This document shows, in pieces, positions 9,398 through 23,275 of a stretch of 23,275 nt of DNA. The position numbers and the translations under genes are program-made. The stretch comes from a virus. Position 1 is the first letter of the stretch. Every line of letters begins with the position of its first letter. A model generated the notes under the pieces. That model saw only the letters and a list, made by a program, of their open reading frames with translations, made no database searches and was not told the origin of the DNA. Where the stretch lies: positions 1-23,275 of IMG/VR virus record IMGVR_UViG_3300020596_000669; one strand, 5' to 3'.

Positions 9398-9868
9398 ATG
9401 ACTATTACTATCAACAAACCCGTTGTAAAACGATTCCGCCTAGCCTATGACTCCGAAGGAGAGGCATGGGTAGAAATTCGTCAGGCGACCGTTGGCGCAC
9501 GCAAAGAACGTGGTGACGAAACCGCAACGATTCGCCAGCGTGTTGACGCGATTGGGTCAATGTTAGAACAAGATATTAACCCTTACGAATTGCAACTCTT
9601 TGATATTTACTTGTGCTTGTCTGGATGGGGCGGGTTTAAGACCGTTGCCGTAGAACAAGACCCAGAGGGCAACGATACCGATGTTGAAAGTGATTTTGAA
9701 CCCTTTAAGTTTGCGGTAATTAATGGTGTGAAGCAATTATCCCACACCAAAGGTCAATTCAATGCCATTATCAATCAATATGTTATCCCCCAAGAATTGA
9801 TTGATGAAATTCACGGTAAAGTCTTGGAGATAAACCCGGATTTTCTGAATCGGGGCGGAAGGAACTAG
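9398..9868 (+). CDS. tail assembly chaperone, gpG-like
   Basis: This codes for 156 residues from the ATG at 9398, chosen because GAGGAG (9382-9387) lies ten bases upstream; a TTG at 9380 in the same frame overlaps that site and is rejected. The protein is acidic and has no membrane segment. FRLAYDSEGEAWVEIRQAT is followed by a helical part, then by a C-terminal helix (NQYVIPQELIDEIHGKVL). In siphoviruses two overlapping ORFs lie between tube and tape measure, the first giving the short chaperone and a -1 frameshift giving the long form; both bind the tape measure during tail assembly. This gene has that position, size and overlap. The function is inferred from arrangement. Confidence 0.7.
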   Translation: MTITINKPVVKRFRLAYDSEGEAWVEIRQATVGARKERGDETATIRQRVDAIGSMLEQDINPYELQLFDIYLCLSGWGGFKTVAVEQDPEGNDTDVESDFEPFKFAVINGVKQLSHTKGQFNAIINQYVIPQELIDEIHGKVLEINPDFLNRGGRN

Positions 9869-10188
9869 CCACGCATTTCCAAGCGCTAGAAAACGAGTGT
9901 GTGGAATGGCTGGAATGGAAATACAAAATCAATGTGGAACACTCCGAAGACCCAGCCATTAACATGCTATTAAAGATTGCCACAGACGCAGGTGTTGAAC
10001 CTCCCCCAATACCTGAGGCGCTATCACTGTATTACACGCTAAAGGCGCACAACATGCAGTATACCGCGGCAGTGGGGTACGAAAATCAGCCGTGGTTGCA
10101 CATATCCGAAATGAATATCTGCATGAACACCATAGCTCAAACCGAAGAAAAATCTCGCATCCACCAAAAAAAGTCAGCGCAAGTTTAA
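9820..10188 (+). CDS. tail chaperone extension, gpT-like, read by -1 frameshift
   Basis: This frame is -1 relative to the gpG-like gene. It is open from 9820 to the TAA at 10186-10188 and overlaps the first ORF's end (9868) by 49 bases. The only start early on is GTG 9901, with no ribosome site, so fusion by frameshift is more likely than separate initiation. A slip near G-GAT-TTT (9838-9844) would give about 263 residues. That heptamer is imperfect: the TTT re-pairs fully and the GAT does not. The extension is helical and charged (ALENECVEWLEWKYKINVE), with a Pro-rich stretch (VEPPPIPEA), and ends in a basic tail. In lambda-like systems this T part recruits the tube protein. Confidence 0.6.
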   Translation, partial: SLGDKPGFSESGRKELATHFQALENECVEWLEWKYKINVEHSEDPAINMLLKIATDAGVEPPPIPEALSLYYTLKAHNMQYTAAVGYENQPWLHISEMNICMNTIAQTEEKSRIHQKKSAQV

Positions 10189-10210: not shown

Positions 10211-10579
10211 ATGTCTACAAAATCCCACAACCCCACACCCCGACAAACCCACCCCTGTATAATTGCTATTTTGCAATCCGATGAAAAGGCGCGGGCTAAA
10301 TGGCGTGCCTATTTCGTCCGTGATGGCGTAAAGTGCTTATGGTTTGACAATCAATCAGACCTAGAAACATTTATTCGGCACAATGCAGTAGACTTGATTT
10401 TGCTCAACATGCCTGACATGGTAGATGTGGCAGATATAGAGTATTACTTTCCGGAAGTATACTGCCTTAGCGATAATCCAGATGATGTTGATATTCCGAC
10501 CGCCTACGGACACGGATGGCTACCAACCCCAATGGACGCTTCTACGGCACGCATCATTCTACAAAAAATAGGTAGATGA
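10211..10579 (+). CDS. pseudo-receiver: response-regulator-like domain without phosphoacceptor
   Basis: This 122-residue protein is the length of one receiver domain. The pattern follows a CheY-like fold: strand CIIAILQSDE (16-25), helix, LWFDNQSDLETFI, then VDLILLNMPDM (60-70). In true receivers that last strand reads DLILLDxMMP; here the phosphoacceptor Asp is N66. S87 in VYCLSDN fits the switch Ser/Thr. GHGWLPTPMD (100-109) matches the usual G-ADDYLTKPF motif, but the conserved Lys is T106. Only D24 remains of the N-terminal acid cluster. It therefore cannot use the normal phosphorylation chemistry and would act as a binding module. No output domain follows. It lies between the tail chaperones and the giant tail gene. 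The ribosome site is weak. The similarity is by eye. Confidence 0.6.
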   Translation: MSTKSHNPTPRQTHPCIIAILQSDEKARAKWRAYFVRDGVKCLWFDNQSDLETFIRHNAVDLILLNMPDMVDVADIEYYFPEVYCLSDNPDDVDIPTAYGHGWLPTPMDASTARIILQKIGR

Positions 10580-10605
10580 CAACACGTGCCGAATCGTGCT
10601 ATAAT
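10576..10605 (+). promoter_or_regulatory. promoter-like sequence before the gene at 10632
   Basis: ATGACA (10576-10581) is followed after 18 bases by a perfect TATAAT (10600-10605), preceded by TGC, which gives an extended -10 element. It overlaps the stop of the pseudo-receiver gene and could drive the 10632 gene and the giant ORF. Confidence 0.55.
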
Positions 10606-10631: not shown

Positions 10632-11033
10632 ATGAATATTCTGTATACAATCGGCAATCAATTAATTGCCGAGTTTCGCCCCCTAGAGACTTATGATTTA
10701 ATATCGCTTAGGGGATTCGCAGAGTCCGCCTCAAAAGAATATCCAGACCAATACAGCCTTTTATTAACGGCTTATACTCTATATATTTCAATGGTAGACC
10801 ACCCCGCAACACACCATGACGGGGAATCATATTTCCCCTTTGCTACGCGCCTCTTAGACCAAACAAAATACATTCCTATGACGTTTGATAATTTCGCACA
10901 GTTATACATAGAGTATGCCGTTGAAATAGAGGCGTTTCATAAGGTAATGACATTGGCGGTTTCTAAAAGCCATCCACGTTTCATAGAGATATTTAACAAA
11001 TACGCCCCCGATCAAAAAGGTGATGACCCATGA
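10632..11033 (+). CDS. small helical protein coupled to the giant tail gene, unknown
   Basis: This codes for 133 residues from the ATG at 10632. A TTG just before it, at 10629, is a less likely start; GAGGTAAGG (10619-10628) serves either. The sequence is predicted mostly helical: LETYDLISLRGFAESASK, YSLLLTAYTLYISMV and FAQLYIEYAVEIEAFHKVM. There is no signal peptide or membrane helix. Its stop overlaps the giant ORF's start (ATGA), so the two are translated together, and a promoter-like sequence precedes it. A tail-assembly chaperone or other partner of the giant protein is the simplest idea, but I recognise no family. Confidence 0.65.
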   Translation: MNILYTIGNQLIAEFRPLETYDLISLRGFAESASKEYPDQYSLLLTAYTLYISMVDHPATHHDGESYFPFATRLLDQTKYIPMTFDNFAQLYIEYAVEIEAFHKVMTLAVSKSHPRFIEIFNKYAPDQKGDDP

Positions 11034-14000
11034 ATGATGACTACAAAAAACTATTAGGCATGGTTAACGTTTCCGATGAGCCAGAGGAAACGCCATCTTA
11101 TTCTGCGTTTTCTAATTTTGACGCGTTTGAATCTCACGAAATAGCCGTTTCTCGCAGAGAACAATCCCGAAACGTTGCCCGCACCATTCTTGAACCCCGT
11201 TGGCGAGGACACCAAGCAAAGTCCTATTCCCCTCAAACTCAAAATACATTTTTCAAACAAAAACCTATTATTCAAGAAACTGCTGGCGGTTGGGCGGTCG
11301 TAGATTCAACTACAAACGAGGTAGTTCGTGAATTTAAGTCCCAATCGAACAGCCAATTTATTTTTGGCGGAAGCGTTGCCCGTTGGCAAGCGCAGGCGTT
11401 TACGACTGGTGGTATTCTTGATTTTAATGATCCTGAAACTCGCCAACTAGCTAAAGACTCCGGTTACGAAGGCGATGTTGATAAATTAAACTTTTCAGAT
11501 GAGTTCAAGTCAAAAATGGGTGGCGTTATCAATATGTACGCCAGTCCTAAAAATCGCCCGGTTGTGTTACCGAGTGAACTATACAAAAATTCTCGCGTTA
11601 ATGATGCGCGGGGTGCATACGACAATACCTTAACCCGTTCTGCGATATTTGTTACAGCAAGCCGTGATGTAGAAATAGATAAGGGGTCTGTAGAAGAACA
11701 ATATTTGTCGGCGTTCTCTTCAATGCCCGCCTCAAAAGAGGAATCGCGTCTATTAACAGGGATTCATGAATTTGGGCATTGGATGCACGATCGGCTTGAA
11801 CAAACAATGGGTGGCGAAGATTCTATAGATACCGAAGGGATTGTCAACCATTACGCAAGTGTTACCCGCCAAGACCGAACTCGTCTATTCGGATTTGCAA
11901 ACAAAATTCACTACAATATGATTAACCAAAACGAGACGTGGGCGAGAGGGTTTTCAATTGATACATTTGTTAATGAAATCAAAGACCCTCAAAATGCACC
12001 TGCCCCTAGTCGTGAAAAATACTCCCGCTTGGGTTTTTCTCCACATAGAACTGGCGAACATTACGATATGCCGTCTGGTCGCATAGATGCGCCTAGTTCT
12101 GGAAGAAATACAGAAGAACAGCGTACTCAAGCGCGTGAGCAGGCAAAGATTACACGCGAGTGGATGGAATCTCGCAAGTCCTCTAACGAGGCAGAACTAA
12201 GCACCGTATTTAAGAACGTCACCGCCGCCAACGAGTCTGGGCAATTGAACAAAAACTATCGTAACTTTCGCATGGAAACCAATAGAGGCTTGCGTGGCGG
12301 AAGCAATATCGTTTTTGACGATTACTCTAATCCTAACCAGCCAATGCCTGTATCGCTCAGTAGTGTTGGGCAACGGATTGGTGTGAATCGCGGTACTGGT
12401 AAGAATCGGCTTGGTGGGTTTATCCCACTCCCCCGCTTAGGTGAAAAGTCCTCAAATTCTGACATGATGATTCAGGCGCTACAGTCAAAGAAACTATCGG
12501 GTTGGCTACAAGGCAACGCGATGAAAAAAGACGATGACGTAAACGCGAGGTTTGTTGGATACGCGCAAACTGAAACATCCATGTCACGCATTAACAACGC
12601 GATGAATCTTGGACGGAATTTTCGCAATCGCGTAACGGCGTTCCGCAGTCAGCAATTACTGGGTAGCCATAGCGGACAGTCTGCCGTTGGTATGCAAGAC
12701 TTTGCCGATGCTTATAATAATTACGGCGAGTCAAATTCCCAATTGTTGTCAAGACTAAAAATGGGGACTGGCGCTAATGCACCGCTAAACGCCAACATCC
12801 CTAAATTCGATAAACGGAATAAAAACATCGGTCGCTTTGACAGCGAGATGGCGACCATGAACGGCGCATTGATGAGAATGCACAAAAACTTTTTGCAAGG
12901 TGGCGCACAATCCAATGTGCTAATGCAGGCTACCTATGCCATCGGCGCACAGTTCAATGAAGGTGAAGCAGAAAAAACCAGAGGGTTAGGCGTTGCCAGC
13001 CCCGAAGAGTTTGAGGTAGATTCCAGCAAAGTGGGGTCGCTTGAAGCTGGTCAGTATTATGGCAATACACGGCGCGTAGGGGTAACACAACGCGCAAGTG
13101 GCAATGTGAAAGAACTAAGCGAAATGGGGCTGGGTGTATCAAATAGCCCTCACGCCTATCAGATATTGGGTGTTGATAATTTAGGTGGCGGTCGCTCACT
13201 GGCTACCGCGCTTCGTCTACACTCAAACACCATGCAAAAAACGATGGGTAAACCGGGGCATTCTGAGCGTGATGCGTCAGTGATGGCGAGATTGGGCAAC
13301 GCGCCACAAGAGTTTTCCGATATAGCCCAAAACGGGAGAGTCCATCTCCAACAGGCAATCACTGGCGACCTGCTTATGCAAGCCCGCCAATCAACAGCAG
13401 GGGCATTTGCCGTTTTAGGCGAACATGCTTACGACAAAGCCATTAGCGCCTATTACCAAGAGAACAAAGATCAATTGGGTGATGCCCACATTGCCGATTC
13501 CTTTGCGGTAGAATATTACACCAAAGGCGTAACACATGGTGGGAAGACCATCGGCGGATTCAATTGGACAAGTGTGGACGCGACTCTATCCGAATCACGG
13601 TTAAGCCACTTTGTTCAAGACGCTAAGCCTGCGGGCGATGAGGGACTGCAATGGGAAGAACACAGCGGAAAATGGCATCGGATGGTAATGAGTGCCGATG
13701 GTACTAAAAAGCCCATAGTAGACCCGCTCACACGGGATAACAAAGGCGAAATGGGCTACGATGTAAAATTGAACGACCTTGTTCATATATCGCCTACGAT
13801 TATGGAAATGAAAGCGTCTTACGGTAGAGACGTTGCCAATATTAAAGGTGACAGCTTCACCGCACGCGAGAAAACCGACCCGTCTTTTGCCAAAAACCTG
13901 CGCCTTTTTGAGGAGGCTGGTATTGGTCGTACCTCTGCAACATTCCACACACTCGCAGACCTTGCAAACCGCAGGGAAAACGGTGCGGAGTATTTAGCAG

Positions 14001-17000
14001 ACTTGGGGCATAACGTGGTGCGCCTCGATGACCCTGAAAGTATTGACTTTGGGCAAATAAAAAAGACTGCATTCGCAAGTACGCCAGAGGGTATGACAAC
14101 CACCCAGAAGGCAGAACGCATACTGAACGAAATTCAGCGGGTACACGGGAACGCGTTTCTATCTGTGGACGCTGGCGGGGTACAACAGTTCCTCGCACCA
14201 GCTTCTAAGATGAAAGAAATGCTCACTGAGGGGAGTGACGGTGAGCCAGTCACCAACCTTGCCAGCAAGCTGGTTACTCTTATGGATACTTCGGAAGCCT
14301 CGCAAGTTGACTCAACAGCCCACATGAAAAGATTGCACGCGAAGGCAATTGCAGATGTGGTACTTGAACAACACGATTATGCGAATACGGCAAAAAATCG
14401 GTCTGACTCTCTATCTGTCCAATTGCCTGCCGTTACAGGACACGCGCAAGGCGCACGCGGGTTAAAATCAAATCAGGTTGCCATGTATCGCTCCGAGATT
14501 ATGCGTAAAACAGGCTTAACCAGTGACGAGGTAGACCGCCTACTCGCAGATAAATCCATGTCGGTAGCCATTACTGGCTATCCTGAATCGGATAAAACAT
14601 CGGCTATCATCGGCGCAAATATTGTGTTAGCCGATACATTGAGCGAAAAACAACGCAAGTCGCTGGGTGTATCTGGGGACGAACACCAAACACTTATCGG
14701 TGAGGACGCGTGGCAAGCCCTTGTACGCGACTATGACGCAGACCAAGTACAGCTTACCTTTAGTCATTATGCCGATGACAAAGGGAACACCATTGGTGGG
14801 AAGCAACGCGTTCATACCGAAAAAGAAATACGCGCTATTGGCGGGTCGCGTTATGGCAATGAATTCAAGAATCGTTCTGATAAATTCTCGGAACGTGCGG
14901 GTTTTGGCGAGTGGCTTACAGACAAGGCGAGAGAAGCCGTCAAGCGTGTTGGTATTGACTCGTTTCAAGACCAGAACGAAAAGGGTATTATTGCCAAACA
15001 ATCTGCGGGCAAACTCTATAACTTTGGGCAACGCATGGTTTACGAGGGCATGAATGAACGGTTTGGGCAAAGTGATGACCCTATACACAAACTTATGGTG
15101 CAGACCGCGGCACGCTTTGGGCAAGGGGTTGTGCAAGGGTCGCTAGATAATGACGCGTCCACAATCGGCTCACTTGAAGACCTTGCAAACATCCAACAGG
15201 GATATGTCAATATCGGCAAGGGAACTGTTCATATCCCTCGCTATGGTGAAAAGGGCAAATCGAAGGGGATGGACTTTCAGCTTGCCAACGAGGACGCAGT
15301 GTTACGCCTTGCCAATGTCGTCAATCAATTTAAGGGCGATGAACAAGATTTAATGGCGCGTCAAATTGCAACGATGCTTATGTCACCAAAACAATTGAGG
15401 GCTACGACTACATCCATAGATGCGTCTAGTCATGTAATTAGCTACGAAAATTCAACAGTTGACACAATGGTCGCACAGTTGAAACAAATCGGAAATAACC
15501 CCGCTCAGATTAGTAAAAAGGACGTTGCAGACTTGTTTGGCAACGCACTTGGAAATAGCAATCGTGGTCTCTTCGGAATTTTCGGCTTAGCTGGTCAAGA
15601 TAAAGAAAACGCTTCCGCACTTGGGGGATTATTTTCTGGCGCATTGGCAAAACGCACGGAAGAAAATGCTGACAAATACGGATTTACTTTGCGTGGAATG
15701 TCTCAGTATTTGCAAGACAACCTCGGAATAGCATCAGACACGATTAGGCGCGTGAGTTCGCTAATCCCGTTAAAGAATTTTAGGGGAACGGGAGCGCAAC
15801 CGTTATCGGATGTTATGAAATACACGCATGGCGAACAGATGGACAAAAGCCTTGCAACGCGCTTTGGCAACGCTTCCGCCAATCCTTCCCCACTTGGAAT
15901 GGATGCCTTAGTTGCCCAATACGGACAGGGTATGCAGAGGGGGCTTATTGAAATGCCACACCCTGTAACTGGAAAAATGGCGATTGCAAACACGACATTC
16001 TCAGAAAATCCGATGAGTGTGCTTGACCACCCAAACTGGTTTACAGAGGGGAGCAACGTAAGCGCGTCTTCGCTAAACCCGGAATGGGGTGGCGAGACAC
16101 CTGCCCAACGCGCCACAAAACTGCGGGCATTAGGCTCAATTCCAAAAGAGTTTGTAATGGGACCGTACTCATCCGATTACAACAACATGTCTCCAGAGGA
16201 TCAGCATAACGCGCAAAGCGCAGTTAACTTGACGCGCAGTGGCTTGGGGTTAACCCCAAAGACCTTAGAGTCTTCGTTTGCTTCATTGGCGGGCGATACA
16301 CTGCACCGCGAATTGCAGGAACACCTACTTGGTGATGTTGCGGGGATTAAGCACGTCACCTATGGAAAAGAACGGGTTGGGAATCGAACTATAAATAAAG
16401 CCGTGCTAGACCCACGCGCACGCGCAGAGGTACGGGTTGTCCAAGACGGCATATCTGGGTCACTGGATGCCATTTACAATAACTCCGTACTGGATTTCAA
16501 AAGCAAGGTAAACACAGGCAAGCTACTTAACAACGCTCAGTACATGCACCAGATGTCCGCCTATCACATGATGACTGTTGAAAATCGCGGAATGGCGAAT
16601 AGTGAACGAGTGATGCAATCGGGTATCGTCCCAGTGTCTCAAACATCGGGGTTGTCACCTGAGGAACGCCTCGCCGAATCTGCAAACGCCGTGCGTGGAT
16701 TAATATCCCGTCTTGAATCTGCCCATAAAGATGGCAATAACGACATGTTTAACGATGTTCTCACCCAAACTTATGGGAGTGAGTATCTTGGCGGTAGTCG
16801 GATGAATCGTGCCAAAACAATTGACTATATAAGACAAGCCAATAATCGCCTAAATAAAGGGGAAGATTGGAAAATGGGTATCATCCCCATGTTCGGTCAA
16901 GAGGCGGTTGATCAAGGCGCAATGGAACTCAATTTGTCCAAACGTCTTTATGATGAAGACAAAGAGGCAATTGGCGACGATGGCTATATCTGGGACGCAA

Positions 17001-20000
17001 GCGCCGCGAAGAAAAACTTCTCAGAACTTGCCAAACGGGTTGTAAACAAACCGTCCATTATGAGCGACTTTCTAAAGGCGTTCCGCAAAGACCGTGCTAT
17101 ACCCTTTATCCTACCCCGCCATCTGGGACCGCCAACGGGGAAACTTCGGCGACCCGGTATGTTTGATGCGGACGACGAGATTGTTTTGGAAGAAGGGGAA
17201 CGTGTACTAATTAACGACGAGTTAATAGAAGCCCCTCACACGGGTAAGTTTAGTATGCCCCCGGACTTGGAATATTCTACTCGCCTTGAGGGACTTGGCG
17301 ATAATCACATACGCAAAGCCGTTGATAAAAAATTTGATAATGATGGAGTCCCCCGCCCCACTGACCAGAATCAGCGCACACCTTCTGGCGCTGGCGGGGG
17401 GAATAGCGCAAATACCCCCCCACCATCTGGGACACCACCGCCCGTACCGTCTGCCAACACGCCACAAACCCCATTCATGCGGTCGCCAATGAGAATGGCA
17501 GATGATTCTAAGTTTGTTGCAAACTTGAATCGCGTGTTTGGGGATGGTTGGGATGACCCCGAAGGGGAAGGTACACAATACAATAAACACGTTCCTGAGG
17601 ATCGATTAAGGTCGTTTGGGTTTAACACGGCGCAAATAGCCGATATTGGGTCAATTTCGCCAATTGCTTTTGCTCAAAGCCCTCATCTACAGAAACTGTT
17701 ACAAAGCGATACCTTAACCCCGTTTAACCAACAAGCCATTAAAAGTTACGCAAACGCTTCGTTTGAATTAATGGACGCTTCTCAAAGAGCTAGTGGGAAT
17801 GTTGCTAGTGGGATGCGTGACCCTGTTGCCACAAACATCCACAGGATGACAAATCAAATGCCTGACGATATGCGGAATCTGTCAATGAACGCTTCCGGGA
17901 TCGGTAAAAAAATACAAATTTCGGCATTGAATACACTGCGAGAACTTGGCGCTAAGGGCGATGCCTCGACAGAACGTGCGTCTGGGTTTTTACGGTCGTT
18001 TGTTGACCCAGAAACCGGAAACTTAGCCGAGGGTCTGACAAAATCTGTTAAAGAATTAACGGCGGGATTCAAAGCGGGAACGGCGGAATACGATAAGTCT
18101 ATGCAGACCTTTAAGTCATGGACGCAAACGTATGATAACCTGCAAACCACCATGGCACCTGCTTTGCGGGGGCAAAACGTTAATGGTCAAATTACCGAAG
18201 AACAATACAACGCACTCTCTGATACGGTTGGGATTAACAATCAACCGCTAGTAAGCAATACTGGTGGAAAATTTAGCTTAGATGTAGACGCATACAATGC
18301 AACAATCAAATCAATTGAAGATACCATAAGACCTCTGGCTGACACCGCAGACAAGGCGCAATCGGTACGTACCCAGAAATCATGGAAGGCGCTGGTGGGT
18401 TTTAGCGCCGAAGGGGAACGTAACAAAAGAGATTTAACAGACTCTTGGAACGCGCCAATGGAAGACGGCAAATTTACTCAGGGCGCATTTGAAGGCATGG
18501 GTAGAAATATACGGACAGCCGCATTGGCATCTGGCGGGTCTATGATAGCCAATGCGTTTGACCCCTACAATATGTTCGCCGCCCAACGGGTGTGGAACGC
18601 ACTAGGCAAGTCTGCGGTAAGTTCGATGGAAGTATACCAAACATCGAGAATGGGACAGGAATATCTCGGCTATCAGGGTGGTATGCTTAGCGGGGAACAA
18701 TTAGCGGGTGGTATGTTTGGCAAGATGCAAAGTCGGTTTGCCCTAACAAAAGAACGCACTTTGGCTATGGGTAGAACTGCCGACTTTGCTTATGGTGGCA
18801 CGGCAGATATGTTAAATAGCCCATTCATGGAAGGGACTTCATCTATTGCTGGGTTGGTCATGCCTGCCCTTGGCGCGGGTATGGCTACTAGCGCTTTGCT
18901 AAAAGGCGCAGTCGGGTTGGGTGCAAAATCCGCTATCGGGCTTGCTACACCACTCGGACTTCTTGCTGGCGCGGGGATTATGGCGTATGGCGGATATAAC
19001 GCCCTGACAAATGCGGGGTCTGATTATATGGCGTTTGCTCAGAACGACCCTCTGGCGAAGCTTGGGGGTGGACTTGGCGCGTGGACTGACCCAGGTGAAT
19101 ACGCCCGCAAGGAAAGATTTACAAAGCGCTCGCAAGAAATAGAAGCAGGCTTTAGATCTGGGCGAGGGATAGATGACGTAAACCTAGATGAGTTTACAGA
19201 AAACGAAAAAGGTTCTGCGAAATACTTAGGGTTTAAGAACACATACAAAGACTCCGCACGCGCCTTCTTTGGGGCAGATGCCGACACGGAATTGCAAAAC
19301 ACGTATCGTATAGCCCAGATGATTGACCCTGCGTTTTCTATATTGAGTGAGCGACAAACAACAAACAATTTGCAGAGTATGCAATTGAAACTTGGCACAG
19401 ATGCCACTATGGATATACTGCTAAGGGCTTCTCGTGCAACTAATAATTCTGTTCCCACGATTGACTCTGCTCGAAGCATAGCCAGCTACTTTGCAAACAC
19501 TGAAGATGACACGCTTGTTGCCACAGATAATATGAATGCGTCTATTGGCGCATCGGGGGTCGCTAACGAATACAGAACGCTTATGGGGCAAAGTGCGATT
19601 GGATACGAGGCGTTTCTTGGTTACGGGAACACCAGAGAAATGTCATTTGCGGGCAGTATTTTAGGGAGTTTGGCTAGAACTCAATTTTCAAATAGAGGAA
19701 CGAGTGAAAACGACTATCTTTATCAAGCAACACAAACAAGGTTAGACAATAGAGACTTTGCGGGTTCGGATCGATCCGCAAGGGCGTATGAAATGTCTGC
19801 GCCTGTTATTGCCTCAGGCAGACAAATTATGGGACTACTTGGGGCAAGCGATATGTCACAAACCGTCTTTGCCGGAGCAAACGCAATGCTAACCGAGGGT
19901 TTTATGGAAAACCCCGGCATTGTCGAGGGTATGGGCGCGCTGATTCAAGGAGCGGCGCGATCTGAAAAAATGGCAAATATGCTTGCGGGTTTGAATATAA

Positions 20001-23000
20001 CAGAGAACAATGGGGTGCTTGAAGGTCCAGCGCCGGAGCCCACTCCCCCGCCGATGATTGTCGCAACGCCACCACCGCCACAAGGGGCAATCCCTAATAA
20101 CATATTCAGTGCGCTACCTCCAACAAACGTGCTTGAGGTGCTGGCTAGAAATAACAATGGGAGACCCCCCTCAGACTTACTACTGGGTATAACTAACGCG
20201 TTTTCTCAACAAAACACTAACCTAAGCGTTCCCATTGAAGGCATGAACACTGAGCGTGTGACTACCGAGGAAGAGCTACAATTTAACGCACATACAGATA
20301 GCGGTATTACGGCGGGTGCTGAATTTCTAGCACGCGATGGCAACCTGCAGGCATGGCACCGAAGACAAATGCGGATAACCAATACTTCGCTGGCTGATTC
20401 GCAGGGCATAGCTAATATTTACGGTGACATGTTTAGTCAACTTGCAACCTCATCGCCCGCGGAACTGCAAACCCTTATAGAAACTTCGCTATCGGATGAT
20501 ACACTTGAGAAGGGGGAGTCTGTAAACGCAAGATGGGGAGTGGATCTGATTGGGGGGCAAACTGATTATACGACTGGGTATAGTGGCTCAAACGCACAGG
20601 CGATGTTTTCTGGCATAGATAACCTTTTGGGGTCGCTTCCTATGGCGACTGCGACAAGCACGCGCAATAGACTAGCCCAAGGACTTATTGATTCTGGGTT
20701 GGGCAGTGCGAATGTGAGGCAACACCGAGTCGGGCAACAGGTATTAAACCAAACAACAGGATACCTTGGGCAATTGGCAAGTCAGGGTTTCAATTATACC
20801 CCTAACGAATCATCGGAATTGGCGCTAGGGCTTGGTCAGGCTTTTGCGGTTAATCAGCCCTTTATTAGTAGCGTTGTTGGCATGTCAGGGGCGGTGCGGG
20901 ACGCAAGTCTATACCGTGTAAATCAGTCAGACCCCCACGCCGTCCGCGACATTGAACTCGCCGGTATGGAAGATATGGGTATAATGGCGACTGAGAACTA
21001 CCACGGTATTGGCATTTTAGCTGCTGAATATCGCGCCGCCCCTACCCGCTTTCAAACTGGAATCATGTCTCGCACATCAGGCATGGAAGAAGGCGCTATT
21101 ATCGGAATGTCGGGATTAAACAACCAAGACCTATCTACCGACAGTATCAGAACAAACGCGAATCGCCTATTCCAAGAGTTTAGCGATGTCTTGATTAACA
21201 ACGCCTCGTTATCCCGTCAAAGTCAAAACGCTATTGGCGATATGATTCTCGGCGGTGGTGAGGAAGTCTATGGTGACGAAGCGGTGGTGGCGGGGCGTTC
21301 ACGGATGCTGGGACGGTATTCAACGGCAATGGGCATGATGACCAGCCGTTATTCAGCGACAGGCTCAAACATTGACGACCTGAGCGCTATGGCGCTTGAA
21401 ACTGCCAATATGACAAGCCAGCAATTTGCCCAATGGCAAGGTATGGAATCACAGAATCCATACGTTATGAGCCAAGACCTTGCTGGCGCACAAAGCCGAT
21501 GGGGTTCAGACGCAGTACCGATAGCGCCTATCAACTTGCAAACAGGCATGGCGACCACCATGACCCAGCTTGCGCCCGGTGGCAACATGGGGTTTGTTGA
21601 CAAACTGCGTGATGTAAACAAAACCTACGGCGGGTCATTCCTCGCCTCATACATGACAGACGACTATCTCTCGAACATTGGTGGGGTGGCTGGCATACAG
21701 GGTGAGATTAGCAACTTGCAAATGTCGCAAATTGGCGCGGGCGCGGGGCATGGACGGCGGATGCTCAATATGCGGAACGCTATGAATCTTGGCGGGGGAA
21801 CGCTTGACGCGCAAGGGTTTGTTGTTGGGGGTAGCTTACAACCGCTACAACAACAATTGGCAAGCGCGGGTCATACACTCAATGTTGGCAACGGTATGAC
21901 CGCGTGGCAGATTGAGGACCGCAAAACGCAAATGTCGCGTGAAATGTCTTTATGGGATATGGAACGACAAGGACGCGATAAGGAAATGCAAAAGCGCCAT
22001 TTCTACGAAAAGTGGGACTTTGGCAAAGCGCAGTTTGACTATAGCAAACAATACCAACAAGAGGAAATGCAAATTGGTCGTACCCAACAACTTACCCAAC
22101 GGGCATGGAGTCAGGTGGACATGGCGGTTGGTCGTACACAGCAAATCACACAATTTGCGTGGCAAAGAGAAGACAACGCCTTTGGACGTGCAAAAAACGC
22201 GCTTGAATTCGGTTGGCAAACAGAAGACTATGGACGCAATCTCAAATATGCACGCGGTAGAGACCGTATTGACTTGCTACGCGAACAGGAACGCTCCAAT
22301 ATCCGTTATAATATGGATGTTGGGCAAGCGGATAAGGCGGATTCGCGTCAAGATACACAAGAACAATGGGCAAGTGAACAGTTCACACGGCAAATGGACA
22401 GGTTTAACCAGCAGGTAATCTGGGAAGACCAACGCTTTGAACGACAAATAGAGCATTTCAATATCATAAATGCCTATGAACTCGAACAAATGCTCATGCA
22501 AAAGCGCCACTTTGAAGAACAAATGGGGTTGGCAGACGAGGACTTTGAGAAGAAAAAAGCCCACACCCTAGAGATGATGGGGCTTGAAGACGGAGAACGT
22601 TCATTAAGCCGTCAAACATCATTGGCGTTTGCCGATATTGACCAAGACTTTAGCGAATCTATGGCGGGTGTCCAACGTAAAATCGCCGAATTGTCCAACC
22701 TGCTCACAGGGATTAGTACAACTGAAGGATGGACAACCGCGCTTCAGAGTCTGCGCCAACAAATACTAGACCACCCTGACGTTAAAACGACCGGCGCAGG
22801 AGTAAACAGTGTTCGCACAATCAACAGCCTTGACGCGTTAATTCTGGCGGACGAGGAACTGAACATGCCAGCCCGTCCAGCACCCGGCGGGGCGGTTGGC
22901 GGTGGTTCTGGTTCTGGTGCTGGTAGTTCTGGTGGTGGGTTGGCAGGCAGACTTGAAAACGTTAACAACGCCTTCAAAACGGTGGAAGTGTCAGCTAAGG

Positions 23001-23275
23001 CGCTCCTCTCCCCTACAAGCGGAATGAACGCACGGTTTGAGTCACTCCGTGAATCTGTAAACGCAAGCAGTACGTCAATTAGCCTAAATCGGTTTGCGTT
23101 TGACTCTCTAAACAACGCTTCCAGTATGGCTAATACCCAGCTTGGAATCGCCACTGGAAACTTCTTTGCGATGAGTATCTCTCTGCTGGGTATCAGTATC
23201 GTTGGCGGTGGTGCTATTGCCAACATAAACGGCGCGGGGGTTGCCTTCCAAACCCTATCTGGCATATTGCCTGAC
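11030..23275 (+). CDS. giant tape-measure-like virion protein with protease and polymerase-like domains (3' end beyond window)
   Basis: From the ATG at 11030 (overlapping the previous stop; AAGGTG about eight bases upstream) the frame is open to the window edge, 4082 codons without a stop. Order of parts: metallopeptidase-like domain with HEFGH at 246-250 and candidate ligand E302; a long region with a polymerase-barrel-like segment (DYDAD at 1234-1238); more unrecognised sequence to ~2100; a Pro/Gly/Ser linker ~2106-2150; a helical region with a Gly/Ala-rich hydrophobic stretch ~2604-2661; a second Pro-rich linker ~2998-3023; then a Gln/Trp/Asp-rich helical repeat zone ~3626-3890, a Gly/Ser linker and another hydrophobic stretch ~4045-4066. 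Position after tube and chaperones marks it as the tape measure, which sets tail length and enters the host cell. Domain roles are inferred from short motifs. Confidence 0.8.
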   Translation, partial: MNDDYKKLLGMVNVSDEPEETPSYSAFSNFDAFESHEIAVSRREQSRNVARTILEPRWRGHQAKSYSPQTQNTFFKQKPIIQETAGGWAVVDSTTNEVVREFKSQSNSQFIFGGSVARWQAQAFTTGGILDFNDPETRQLAKDSGYEGDVDKLNFSDEFKSKMGGVINMYASPKNRPVVLPSELYKNSRVNDARGAYDNTLTRSAIFVTASRDVEIDKGSVEEQYLSAFSSMPASKEESRLLTGIHEFGHWMHDRLEQTMGGEDSIDTEGIVNHYASVTRQDRTRLFGFANKIHYNMINQNETWARGFSIDTFVNEIKDPQNAPAPSREKYSRLGFSPHRTGEHYDMPSGRIDAPSSGRNTEEQRTQAREQAKITREWMESRKSSNEAELSTVFKNVTAANESGQLNKNYRNFRMETNRGLRGGSNIVFDDYSNPNQPMPVSLSSVGQRIGVNRGTGKNRLGGFIPLPRLGEKSSNSDMMIQALQSKKLSGWLQGNAMKKDDDVNARFVGYAQTETSMSRINNAMNLGRNFRNRVTAFRSQQLLGSHSGQSAVGMQDFADAYNNYGESNSQLLSRLKMGTGANAPLNANIPKFDKRNKNIGRFDSEMATMNGALMRMHKNFLQGGAQSNVLMQATYAIGAQFNEGEAEKTRGLGVASPEEFEVDSSKVGSLEAGQYYGNTRRVGVTQRASGNVKELSEMGLGVSNSPHAYQILGVDNLGGGRSLATALRLHSNTMQKTMGKPGHSERDASVMARLGNAPQEFSDIAQNGRVHLQQAITGDLLMQARQSTAGAFAVLGEHAYDKAISAYYQENKDQLGDAHIADSFAVEYYTKGVTHGGKTIGGFNWTSVDATLSESRLSHFVQDAKPAGDEGLQWEEHSGKWHRMVMSADGTKKPIVDPLTRDNKGEMGYDVKLNDLVHISPTIMEMKASYGRDVANIKGDSFTAREKTDPSFAKNLRLFEEAGIGRTSATFHTLADLANRRENGAEYLADLGHNVVRLDDPESIDFGQIKKTAFASTPEGMTTTQKAERILNEIQRVHGNAFLSVDAGGVQQFLAPASKMKEMLTEGSDGEPVTNLASKLVTLMDTSEASQVDSTAHMKRLHAKAIADVVLEQHDYANTAKNRSDSLSVQLPAVTGHAQGARGLKSNQVAMYRSEIMRKTGLTSDEVDRLLADKSMSVAITGYPESDKTSAIIGANIVLADTLSEKQRKSLGVSGDEHQTLIGEDAWQALVRDYDADQVQLTFSHYADDKGNTIGGKQRVHTEKEIRAIGGSRYGNEFKNRSDKFSERAGFGEWLTDKAREAVKRVGIDSFQDQNEKGIIAKQSAGKLYNFGQRMVYEGMNERFGQSDDPIHKLMVQTAARFGQGVVQGSLDNDASTIGSLEDLANIQQGYVNIGKGTVHIPRYGEKGKSKGMDFQLANEDAVLRLANVVNQFKGDEQDLMARQIATMLMSPKQLRATTTSIDASSHVISYENSTVDTMVAQLKQIGNNPAQISKKDVADLFGNALGNSNRGLFGIFGLAGQDKENASALGGLFSGALAKRTEENADKYGFTLRGMSQYLQDNLGIASDTIRRVSSLIPLKNFRGTGAQPLSDVMKYTHGEQMDKSLATRFGNASANPSPLGMDALVAQYGQGMQRGLIEMPHPVTGKMAIANTTFSENPMSVLDHPNWFTEGSNVSASSLNPEWGGETPAQRATKLRALGSIPKEFVMGPYSSDYNNMSPEDQHNAQSAVNLTRSGLGLTPKTLESSFASLAGDTLHRELQEHLLGDVAGIKHVTYGKERVGNRTINKAVLDPRARAEVRVVQDGISGSLDAIYNNSVLDFKSKVNTGKLLNNAQYMHQMSAYHMMTVENRGMANSERVMQSGIVPVSQTSGLSPEERLAESANAVRGLISRLESAHKDGNNDMFNDVLTQTYGSEYLGGSRMNRAKTIDYIRQANNRLNKGEDWKMGIIPMFGQEAVDQGAMELNLSKRLYDEDKEAIGDDGYIWDASAAKKNFSELAKRVVNKPSIMSDFLKAFRKDRAIPFILPRHLGPPTGKLRRPGMFDADDEIVLEEGERVLINDELIEAPHTGKFSMPPDLEYSTRLEGLGDNHIRKAVDKKFDNDGVPRPTDQNQRTPSGAGGGNSANTPPPSGTPPPVPSANTPQTPFMRSPMRMADDSKFVANLNRVFGDGWDDPEGEGTQYNKHVPEDRLRSFGFNTAQIADIGSISPIAFAQSPHLQKLLQSDTLTPFNQQAIKSYANASFELMDASQRASGNVASGMRDPVATNIHRMTNQMPDDMRNLSMNASGIGKKIQISALNTLRELGAKGDASTERASGFLRSFVDPETGNLAEGLTKSVKELTAGFKAGTAEYDKSMQTFKSWTQTYDNLQTTMAPALRGQNVNGQITEEQYNALSDTVGINNQPLVSNTGGKFSLDVDAYNATIKSIEDTIRPLADTADKAQSVRTQKSWKALVGFSAEGERNKRDLTDSWNAPMEDGKFTQGAFEGMGRNIRTAALASGGSMIANAFDPYNMFAAQRVWNALGKSAVSSMEVYQTSRMGQEYLGYQGGMLSGEQLAGGMFGKMQSRFALTKERTLAMGRTADFAYGGTADMLNSPFMEGTSSIAGLVMPALGAGMATSALLKGAVGLGAKSAIGLATPLGLLAGAGIMAYGGYNALTNAGSDYMAFAQNDPLAKLGGGLGAWTDPGEYARKERFTKRSQEIEAGFRSGRGIDDVNLDEFTENEKGSAKYLGFKNTYKDSARAFFGADADTELQNTYRIAQMIDPAFSILSERQTTNNLQSMQLKLGTDATMDILLRASRATNNSVPTIDSARSIASYFANTEDDTLVATDNMNASIGASGVANEYRTLMGQSAIGYEAFLGYGNTREMSFAGSILGSLARTQFSNRGTSENDYLYQATQTRLDNRDFAGSDRSARAYEMSAPVIASGRQIMGLLGASDMSQTVFAGANAMLTEGFMENPGIVEGMGALIQGAARSEKMANMLAGLNITENNGVLEGPAPEPTPPPMIVATPPPPQGAIPNNIFSALPPTNVLEVLARNNNGRPPSDLLLGITNAFSQQNTNLSVPIEGMNTERVTTEEELQFNAHTDSGITAGAEFLARDGNLQAWHRRQMRITNTSLADSQGIANIYGDMFSQLATSSPAELQTLIETSLSDDTLEKGESVNARWGVDLIGGQTDYTTGYSGSNAQAMFSGIDNLLGSLPMATATSTRNRLAQGLIDSGLGSANVRQHRVGQQVLNQTTGYLGQLASQGFNYTPNESSELALGLGQAFAVNQPFISSVVGMSGAVRDASLYRVNQSDPHAVRDIELAGMEDMGIMATENYHGIGILAAEYRAAPTRFQTGIMSRTSGMEEGAIIGMSGLNNQDLSTDSIRTNANRLFQEFSDVLINNASLSRQSQNAIGDMILGGGEEVYGDEAVVAGRSRMLGRYSTAMGMMTSRYSATGSNIDDLSAMALETANMTSQQFAQWQGMESQNPYVMSQDLAGAQSRWGSDAVPIAPINLQTGMATTMTQLAPGGNMGFVDKLRDVNKTYGGSFLASYMTDDYLSNIGGVAGIQGEISNLQMSQIGAGAGHGRRMLNMRNAMNLGGGTLDAQGFVVGGSLQPLQQQLASAGHTLNVGNGMTAWQIEDRKTQMSREMSLWDMERQGRDKEMQKRHFYEKWDFGKAQFDYSKQYQQEEMQIGRTQQLTQRAWSQVDMAVGRTQQITQFAWQREDNAFGRAKNALEFGWQTEDYGRNLKYARGRDRIDLLREQERSNIRYNMDVGQADKADSRQDTQEQWASEQFTRQMDRFNQQVIWEDQRFERQIEHFNIINAYELEQMLMQKRHFEEQMGLADEDFEKKKAHTLEMMGLEDGERSLSRQTSLAFADIDQDFSESMAGVQRKIAELSNLLTGISTTEGWTTALQSLRQQILDHPDVKTTGAGVNSVRTINSLDALILADEELNMPARPAPGGAVGGGSGSGAGSSGGGLAGRLENVNNAFKTVEVSAKALLSPTSGMNARFESLRESVNASSTSISLNRFAFDSLNNASSMANTQLGIATGNFFAMSISLLGISIVGGGAIANINGAGVAFQTLSGILPD
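11477..11989 (+). other. zinc metallopeptidase-like domain of the giant protein
   Basis: This covers about residues 150-320. LLTGIHEFGHWMHDRLEQ holds the HExxH motif (H246, E247, H250). About fifty residues on, NETWARGF offers E302 as the third zinc ligand in an E-xx-A-x-x-F context, as in anthrax lethal factor-type zincins (HEFGH, later EFFAEAF). All three ligands and the catalytic Glu are present, so it may be active. It could trim the giant protein itself or cut wall or host targets during entry; neither can be told from the sequence. Confidence 0.65.
14411..15163 (+). other. RNA polymerase beta'-like double-psi barrel segment of the giant protein
   Basis: This covers about residues 1128-1378. 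VQLPAVTG and NQVAMYRSEIMRKTGL lead to VAITGYPESDKTSA (Y1184-P1185), and about 50 residues later VRDYDADQVQL places D1234, D1236 and D1238. Multisubunit polymerases have RxP, then DFDGD, in one double-psi barrel, and the single-chain virion polymerase of crAss-like phage phi14:2 has DFDID. Helical KGIIAKQSAGKLYNFGQRM and QGVVQGSLD follow, as after the catalytic loop in such enzymes. Against it: the RxP arginine is a Gly here, the motif's Gly is Ala, and the partner barrel with its two lysines is only a candidate (K928 in DLVHISPTIMEMK). Confidence 0.45.
17344..17476 (+). other. proline/glycine-rich linker in the giant protein
   Basis: This covers about residues 2106-2150. It includes TPSGAGGGNSANTPPPSG and TPPPVPSANTPQTP. 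It is low-complexity and disordered, and separates the N-terminal half (protease and polymerase-like parts) from the tape-measure-like half. Confidence 0.75.
18837..19011 (+). other. hydrophobic Gly/Ala-rich stretch in the giant protein
   Basis: This covers about residues 2604-2661. It includes AGLVMPALGAGMATSALL and LATPLGLLAGAGIMAYGG, long enough for two membrane segments. Tape measures often have such stretches, which are thought to enter the host membrane during DNA delivery. Confidence 0.6.
22079..22240 (+). repeat. three 18-residue tandem repeats in the giant protein
   Basis: Three 54-base units (22079-22132, 22133-22186, 22187-22240) encode RTQQLTQRAWSQVDMAVG, RTQQITQFAWQREDNAFG and RAKNALEFGWQTEDYGRN. 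Position 10 is always Trp and position 14 always Asp. They lie in a longer zone (about 21899-22700) of related but looser W/F-Q-x-E-D and RF/HF-xxQ patterns, with no Pro over more than 200 residues, predicting a continuous helix. Confidence 0.75.

Follow-up and report, generated by a model that had tools for sequence, protein, structure and literature searches.

The window, by which we mean the whole stretch of DNA analysed, is a virus record of 23,275 bases from an uncultured tailed phage. Its genes occur in the order terminase, portal, a gene at the scaffold position, capsid, adaptor, a gene at the tail-tube position, a G-like and a T-like tail chaperone, a receiver-like open reading frame (ORF), an orphan gene and a giant gene. 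The large terminase was recognised by a PHROG match (E = 6e-17), the portal is of the SPP1 type (Pfam, E = 3e-15), the adaptor is of the SU10 type (Pfam), and the major capsid gene gave a weak match to the N4-gp56 family; genes without a database match were named by their position and by their conservation in relatives. The window genes and sites given below with their coordinates lie on the plus strand.

The receiver-like ORF (10211..10579) encodes a protein of 122 aa, probably an aspartate-less pseudo-receiver without an output domain. Upstream of it are the G-like gene (9398..9868) and the T-like gene (9901..10188), the latter in the -1 frame relative to the former and carrying a conserved QP motif; both chaperones are conserved in relatives. 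Downstream, beyond the orphan gene (10632..11033), the gene at the tape-measure position (11030..23275) extends for more than 4000 codons and runs off the window, so that it is open at the window end. The tail-cluster setting described in the first-pass annotation is therefore borne out, with a chaperone pair on one side and a giant tape-measure-like gene on the other.

Several further features surround the ORF. A promoter-like site (10576..10605; ATGACA, a spacer of 18, and TATAAT with an extended -10 TG, 11/12) starts at the ORF stop codon and lies between the ORF and the orphan gene; it is the best such site in the 19 kb scanned, over which the number of such sites is at chance level. The orphan gene has the lowest GC content among the window genes (0.405). 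In the giant gene, an HEFGH motif of the metallopeptidase type HExxH is present at residue 246 (11765-11779), within an N-terminal part that has no match in the relatives read, and the stretch GSLDAIYNNSVLDFKS (approximately 16457-16504) resembles by eye the core of PD-(D/E)XK nucleases.

The ORF has the properties of a genuine gene. It begins with ATG and occupies exactly 10211-10579, and its translation contains the segments VDLILLNMPDM and GHGWLPTPMD as quoted in the first-pass annotation. By codon usage its frame is the best of the six (+0.06 per codon, versus -0.24 to -0.46 for the other five), and a random open frame of 122 codons is expected with p ~0.0015 per frame. The GC content is 0.45, as compared with 0.48 for the window, and the ribosome-binding site, judged by eye, is weaker than those of the neighbours. 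A programmed -1 frameshift joining the T-like gene to the ORF was rejected on reading the sequence: slippage at A AAA AAG (10167-10173) would enter the third frame and meet a stop within about 8 codons.

Similarity to receivers was detected in the N-terminal half of the encoded protein. The best sequence match was to the NCBIfam TorR model (E = 4.2e-4, residues 18-67), and hhalign comparison with five E. coli regulators aligned residues 18-73 (P = 7.6e-4). Pfam Response_reg scored 13.5 bits in the library-wide search (E = 0.084) and 12.8 bits in a targeted one (E = 0.002); the protein is recognised via the E-value of the TorR model and lies below both the Pfam and the NCBIfam cut-offs, the curated threshold of PF00072 being 30.2 bits. 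With a profile built from eight E. coli receivers the score of the N-terminal half exceeded those of all 500 shuffled sequences (0/500), and the full-length protein, scored against a small custom-built HMM, ranked fourth among 5000 shuffles. As controls, nine shuffles and the reversed ORF sequence gave a best NCBIfam E-value of 0.049, and the best match among ten other window proteins, at 0.012, was a plausible capsid match. The tests of the N-terminal half share one set of residues and cannot be counted as independent. At the level of sequence, residues 17-73 (10259..10429), which correspond to the region from receiver strand 1 to just past strand 3, are confirmed to resemble OmpR/PhoB-type receivers beyond chance. 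The C-terminal half scored no better than shuffled sequences (880/1000 were as good or better), so the alignment of GHGWLPTPMD with the receiver motif DDYLTKPF, proposed in the first-pass annotation, is a match by eye only and lacks statistical support.

The residues required for phosphorylation are missing from this supported half. In alignments with E. coli receivers the acidic-pair position is occupied by Gln22-Ser23, a loss that had previously gone unmentioned. It had been claimed that the phosphoacceptor Asp is replaced by Asn, and the TorR match agrees with this, because residues 18-67 pair with model positions 5-54 at equal lengths on both sides and Asn66 is thereby placed at Asp53. Gapped alignments, on the other hand, delete the phosphoacceptor and its neighbour (a two-residue gap) and put Asn66 at Asp+2. 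Under either alignment no Asp stands at or beside the site, and to that extent the claim holds, but the substitution by Asn66 is one of two readings. Since the phosphoacceptor is gone in both, the protein would, provided that it is a receiver in the first place, count as an aspartate-less pseudo-receiver as defined in PMC12632262. The conserved Thr and Lys appear as Ser87 and Thr106, two positions that rest on the unsupported C-terminal half.

Structure prediction gave mixed evidence, because the full-length model is receiver-like and a trimmed one is not. In the AlphaFold2 model of the ORF protein (single sequence, pLDDT 48), the order of strands and helices is that of a receiver as far as strand 4. 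Its best PDB matches in Foldseek were mostly receivers, none at E < 0.001, and VIA-align returned Z ~8 over ~92 residues, a level rated middling by the tool itself. Against a viral structure library all matches were weak; they comprised histidine kinases of giant viruses and some response regulators of phages. When AlphaFold was rerun on residues 15-122, with the first 14 removed, a different topology with unrelated structural matches was obtained. Of the original proposal of a receiver-like protein, the N-terminal half without a phosphoacceptor is thus supported, while for the full five-stranded receiver fold the evidence is divided, one low-confidence model agreeing with it and the trimmed one disagreeing.

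These structural results bear on an alternative in which the protein is not a receiver at all, but an alpha/beta protein of a different kind, with an N-terminal half (beta-alpha-beta-alpha-beta) that came to look like a receiver by convergence or chance. The restriction of the similarity to one half, the instability of the AlphaFold2 models and a score far under the Pfam cut-off all fit this alternative. Nonetheless, several receiver profiles converge on the same residues, and the NCBIfam E-value is well below the best reached by shuffled sequences; we therefore consider it somewhat unlikely, and hold that the protein is probably derived from a receiver.

Relatives of the window were collected through its head genes. 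Single-protein scans with the major capsid protein, terminase and portal returned no relatives, nor did tblastn against phage records, where the window portal and capsid proteins had no match. A syntenic phage (G001; portal, 42%) was found through a terminase motif, an alignment of its portal with that of the window led to eight further records, and a portal motif then gave at least 80 viral matches, some of them already known, and three genome matches. In the portal-motif records, tblastn detected the window portal and usually other head genes too. Many uncultured phages form a large group that shares a head module and is recognisable by this motif, D-x-GSQRS-x-x-TL-x-x-RM (L004:7535-8626; L017-L096).

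We read the stretch following the G-like gene in 18 loci, two of which (L020 and L022) are near identical, leaving ~17 distinct relatives. In about 14, the T-like gene, or a gap holding it, is followed by the giant gene. A 76-codon ORF separates the two genes in G001, which also carries an insertion before its tail-tube gene that looks by eye glycosyltransferase-like. In two relatives, the giant gene has an additional G-like chaperone gene right ahead of it (L013:17142-17558 and L015:17515-17934; hhalign, 99.9%). A receiver-like gene between the T-like and giant genes was found in none of the ~17 distinct relatives, and a search for PF00072 in 59 related virus records, many of them fragments, returned 0 matches, the window itself giving one sub-threshold match. 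The first-pass annotation had called the position of the ORF unexpected and suggested looking for phage homologues at the same place; the comparison bears out the former, and the latter search came back empty. The orphan gene has no family match and likewise does not occur at this place in the relatives read, as compared with which it too is an insertion; the idea that it encodes a further G-like chaperone, like the additional genes of L013 and L015, was unsupported, as no similarity was found.

Because the receiver-like gene is missing at this place in ~17 relatives, it is probably an accessory gene and not one of the usual tail-machinery genes. For the same reason it is unlikely to be required for tail assembly, for instance as a required chaperone; a chaperone was one of the roles that the first-pass annotation put forward, beside a decoy and a binder of host regulators. 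In a broader form of the pseudo-receiver proposal, a stand-alone, aspartate-less phage protein would be made together with the tail proteins and dock either on host histidine kinases and regulators or on the tape measure; we consider this form unlikely, and found no earlier description of the receiver fold being used in this way in phages. A helper role confined to this phage, in which the protein would bind the T-like chaperone or the giant tape measure during virion assembly, appears quite unlikely. Its location between chaperones and tape measure, and the extra chaperone-like gene at the same place in two relatives, would suit such a role, but ~17 distinct relatives manage without the gene at this place, and hhalign with the single ORF sequence matched neither the G nor the T profile of relatives.

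No homologue of the ORF protein was found in viral contigs, in related virus records, in phage records (best E = 0.1, short pieces) or in 301 genomes from the phylum to which an Anaerolineae metagenome-assembled genome with a related portal belongs, the control for these searches being the self-match of the query in its own record only. Conservation therefore cannot speak for the receiver reading. The empty searches, together with the lost catalytic residues, the weak ribosome-binding site and the absence from relatives, would be expected of a response-regulator fragment that the phage acquired and that is now decaying without function, but the frame is intact across 122 codons, codon usage is like that of the phage's own genes, the GC content is close to that of the window and the surrounding operon is compact, and we judge decay improbable.

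The reading we prefer, to which we assign a probability of roughly 0.4, is that the ORF encodes an accessory, phosphorylation-independent binding protein derived from a receiver of the OmpR/PhoB type, with a host two-component protein as its likeliest partner. The protein would descend from a bacterial receiver domain that came to stand alone and lost the residues for Asp phosphorylation, becoming an aspartate-less pseudo-receiver. Its gene would be accessory cargo carried in the tail operon, outside the conserved tail machinery, and the protein would bind its partners through the protein-protein surfaces of receivers, independently of phosphorylation. The usual partners of receivers are histidine kinases and other receivers. 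Since the protein would have neither phosphorylation chemistry nor an output domain, and since phage proteins that bind host kinases are known, a host-directed binder, acting on a histidine kinase or a response regulator, is our best guess; we are less confident of an action on the host than of the receiver origin.

If this reading is correct, a minimal phage-borne pseudo-receiver devoid of an output domain would offer a simple test case for phosphorylation-independent binding, and would add one more way in which phages touch host two-component signalling. The reach of the observation is limited for now to a single gene without homologues. Pseudo-receivers and receiver-like phage domains are both already known; a stand-alone aspartate-less one inserted among tail genes appears to be a new variation on these, and the open-licence literature yielded no directly comparable case of a phage pseudo-receiver within such an operon.

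Among known systems, aspartate-less receivers form a subset of the pseudo-receiver domains, which are common and whose mode of action in bacteria is largely unknown (PMC12632262). The ORF protein resembles them in being receiver-like in sequence and devoid of the phosphoacceptor Asp, but it lies far under the Pfam cut-off with only its N-terminal half supported, and it is stand-alone, phage-borne and placed in a tail operon. TorR and the other OmpR/PhoB receivers provide its best sequence match (residues 18-67), yet the ORF protein has no DNA-binding output domain, no acidic pair and no phosphoacceptor Asp. In jumbo phages, a divergent Rec domain has been linked to NAD+/ADP-ribose enzymes outside histidine-kinase systems (PMC7824862); by description, this too is a divergent receiver-like domain in a phage, but unlike the ORF protein it reportedly keeps its catalytic aspartates, and its gene neighbours differ. 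PIT4 of Pseudomonas phage LSL4 binds several host histidine kinases (PMC10714779), which, by description, is the mode of action proposed here for the ORF protein, although PIT4 is the product of an early gene and the ORF belongs to a tail operon.
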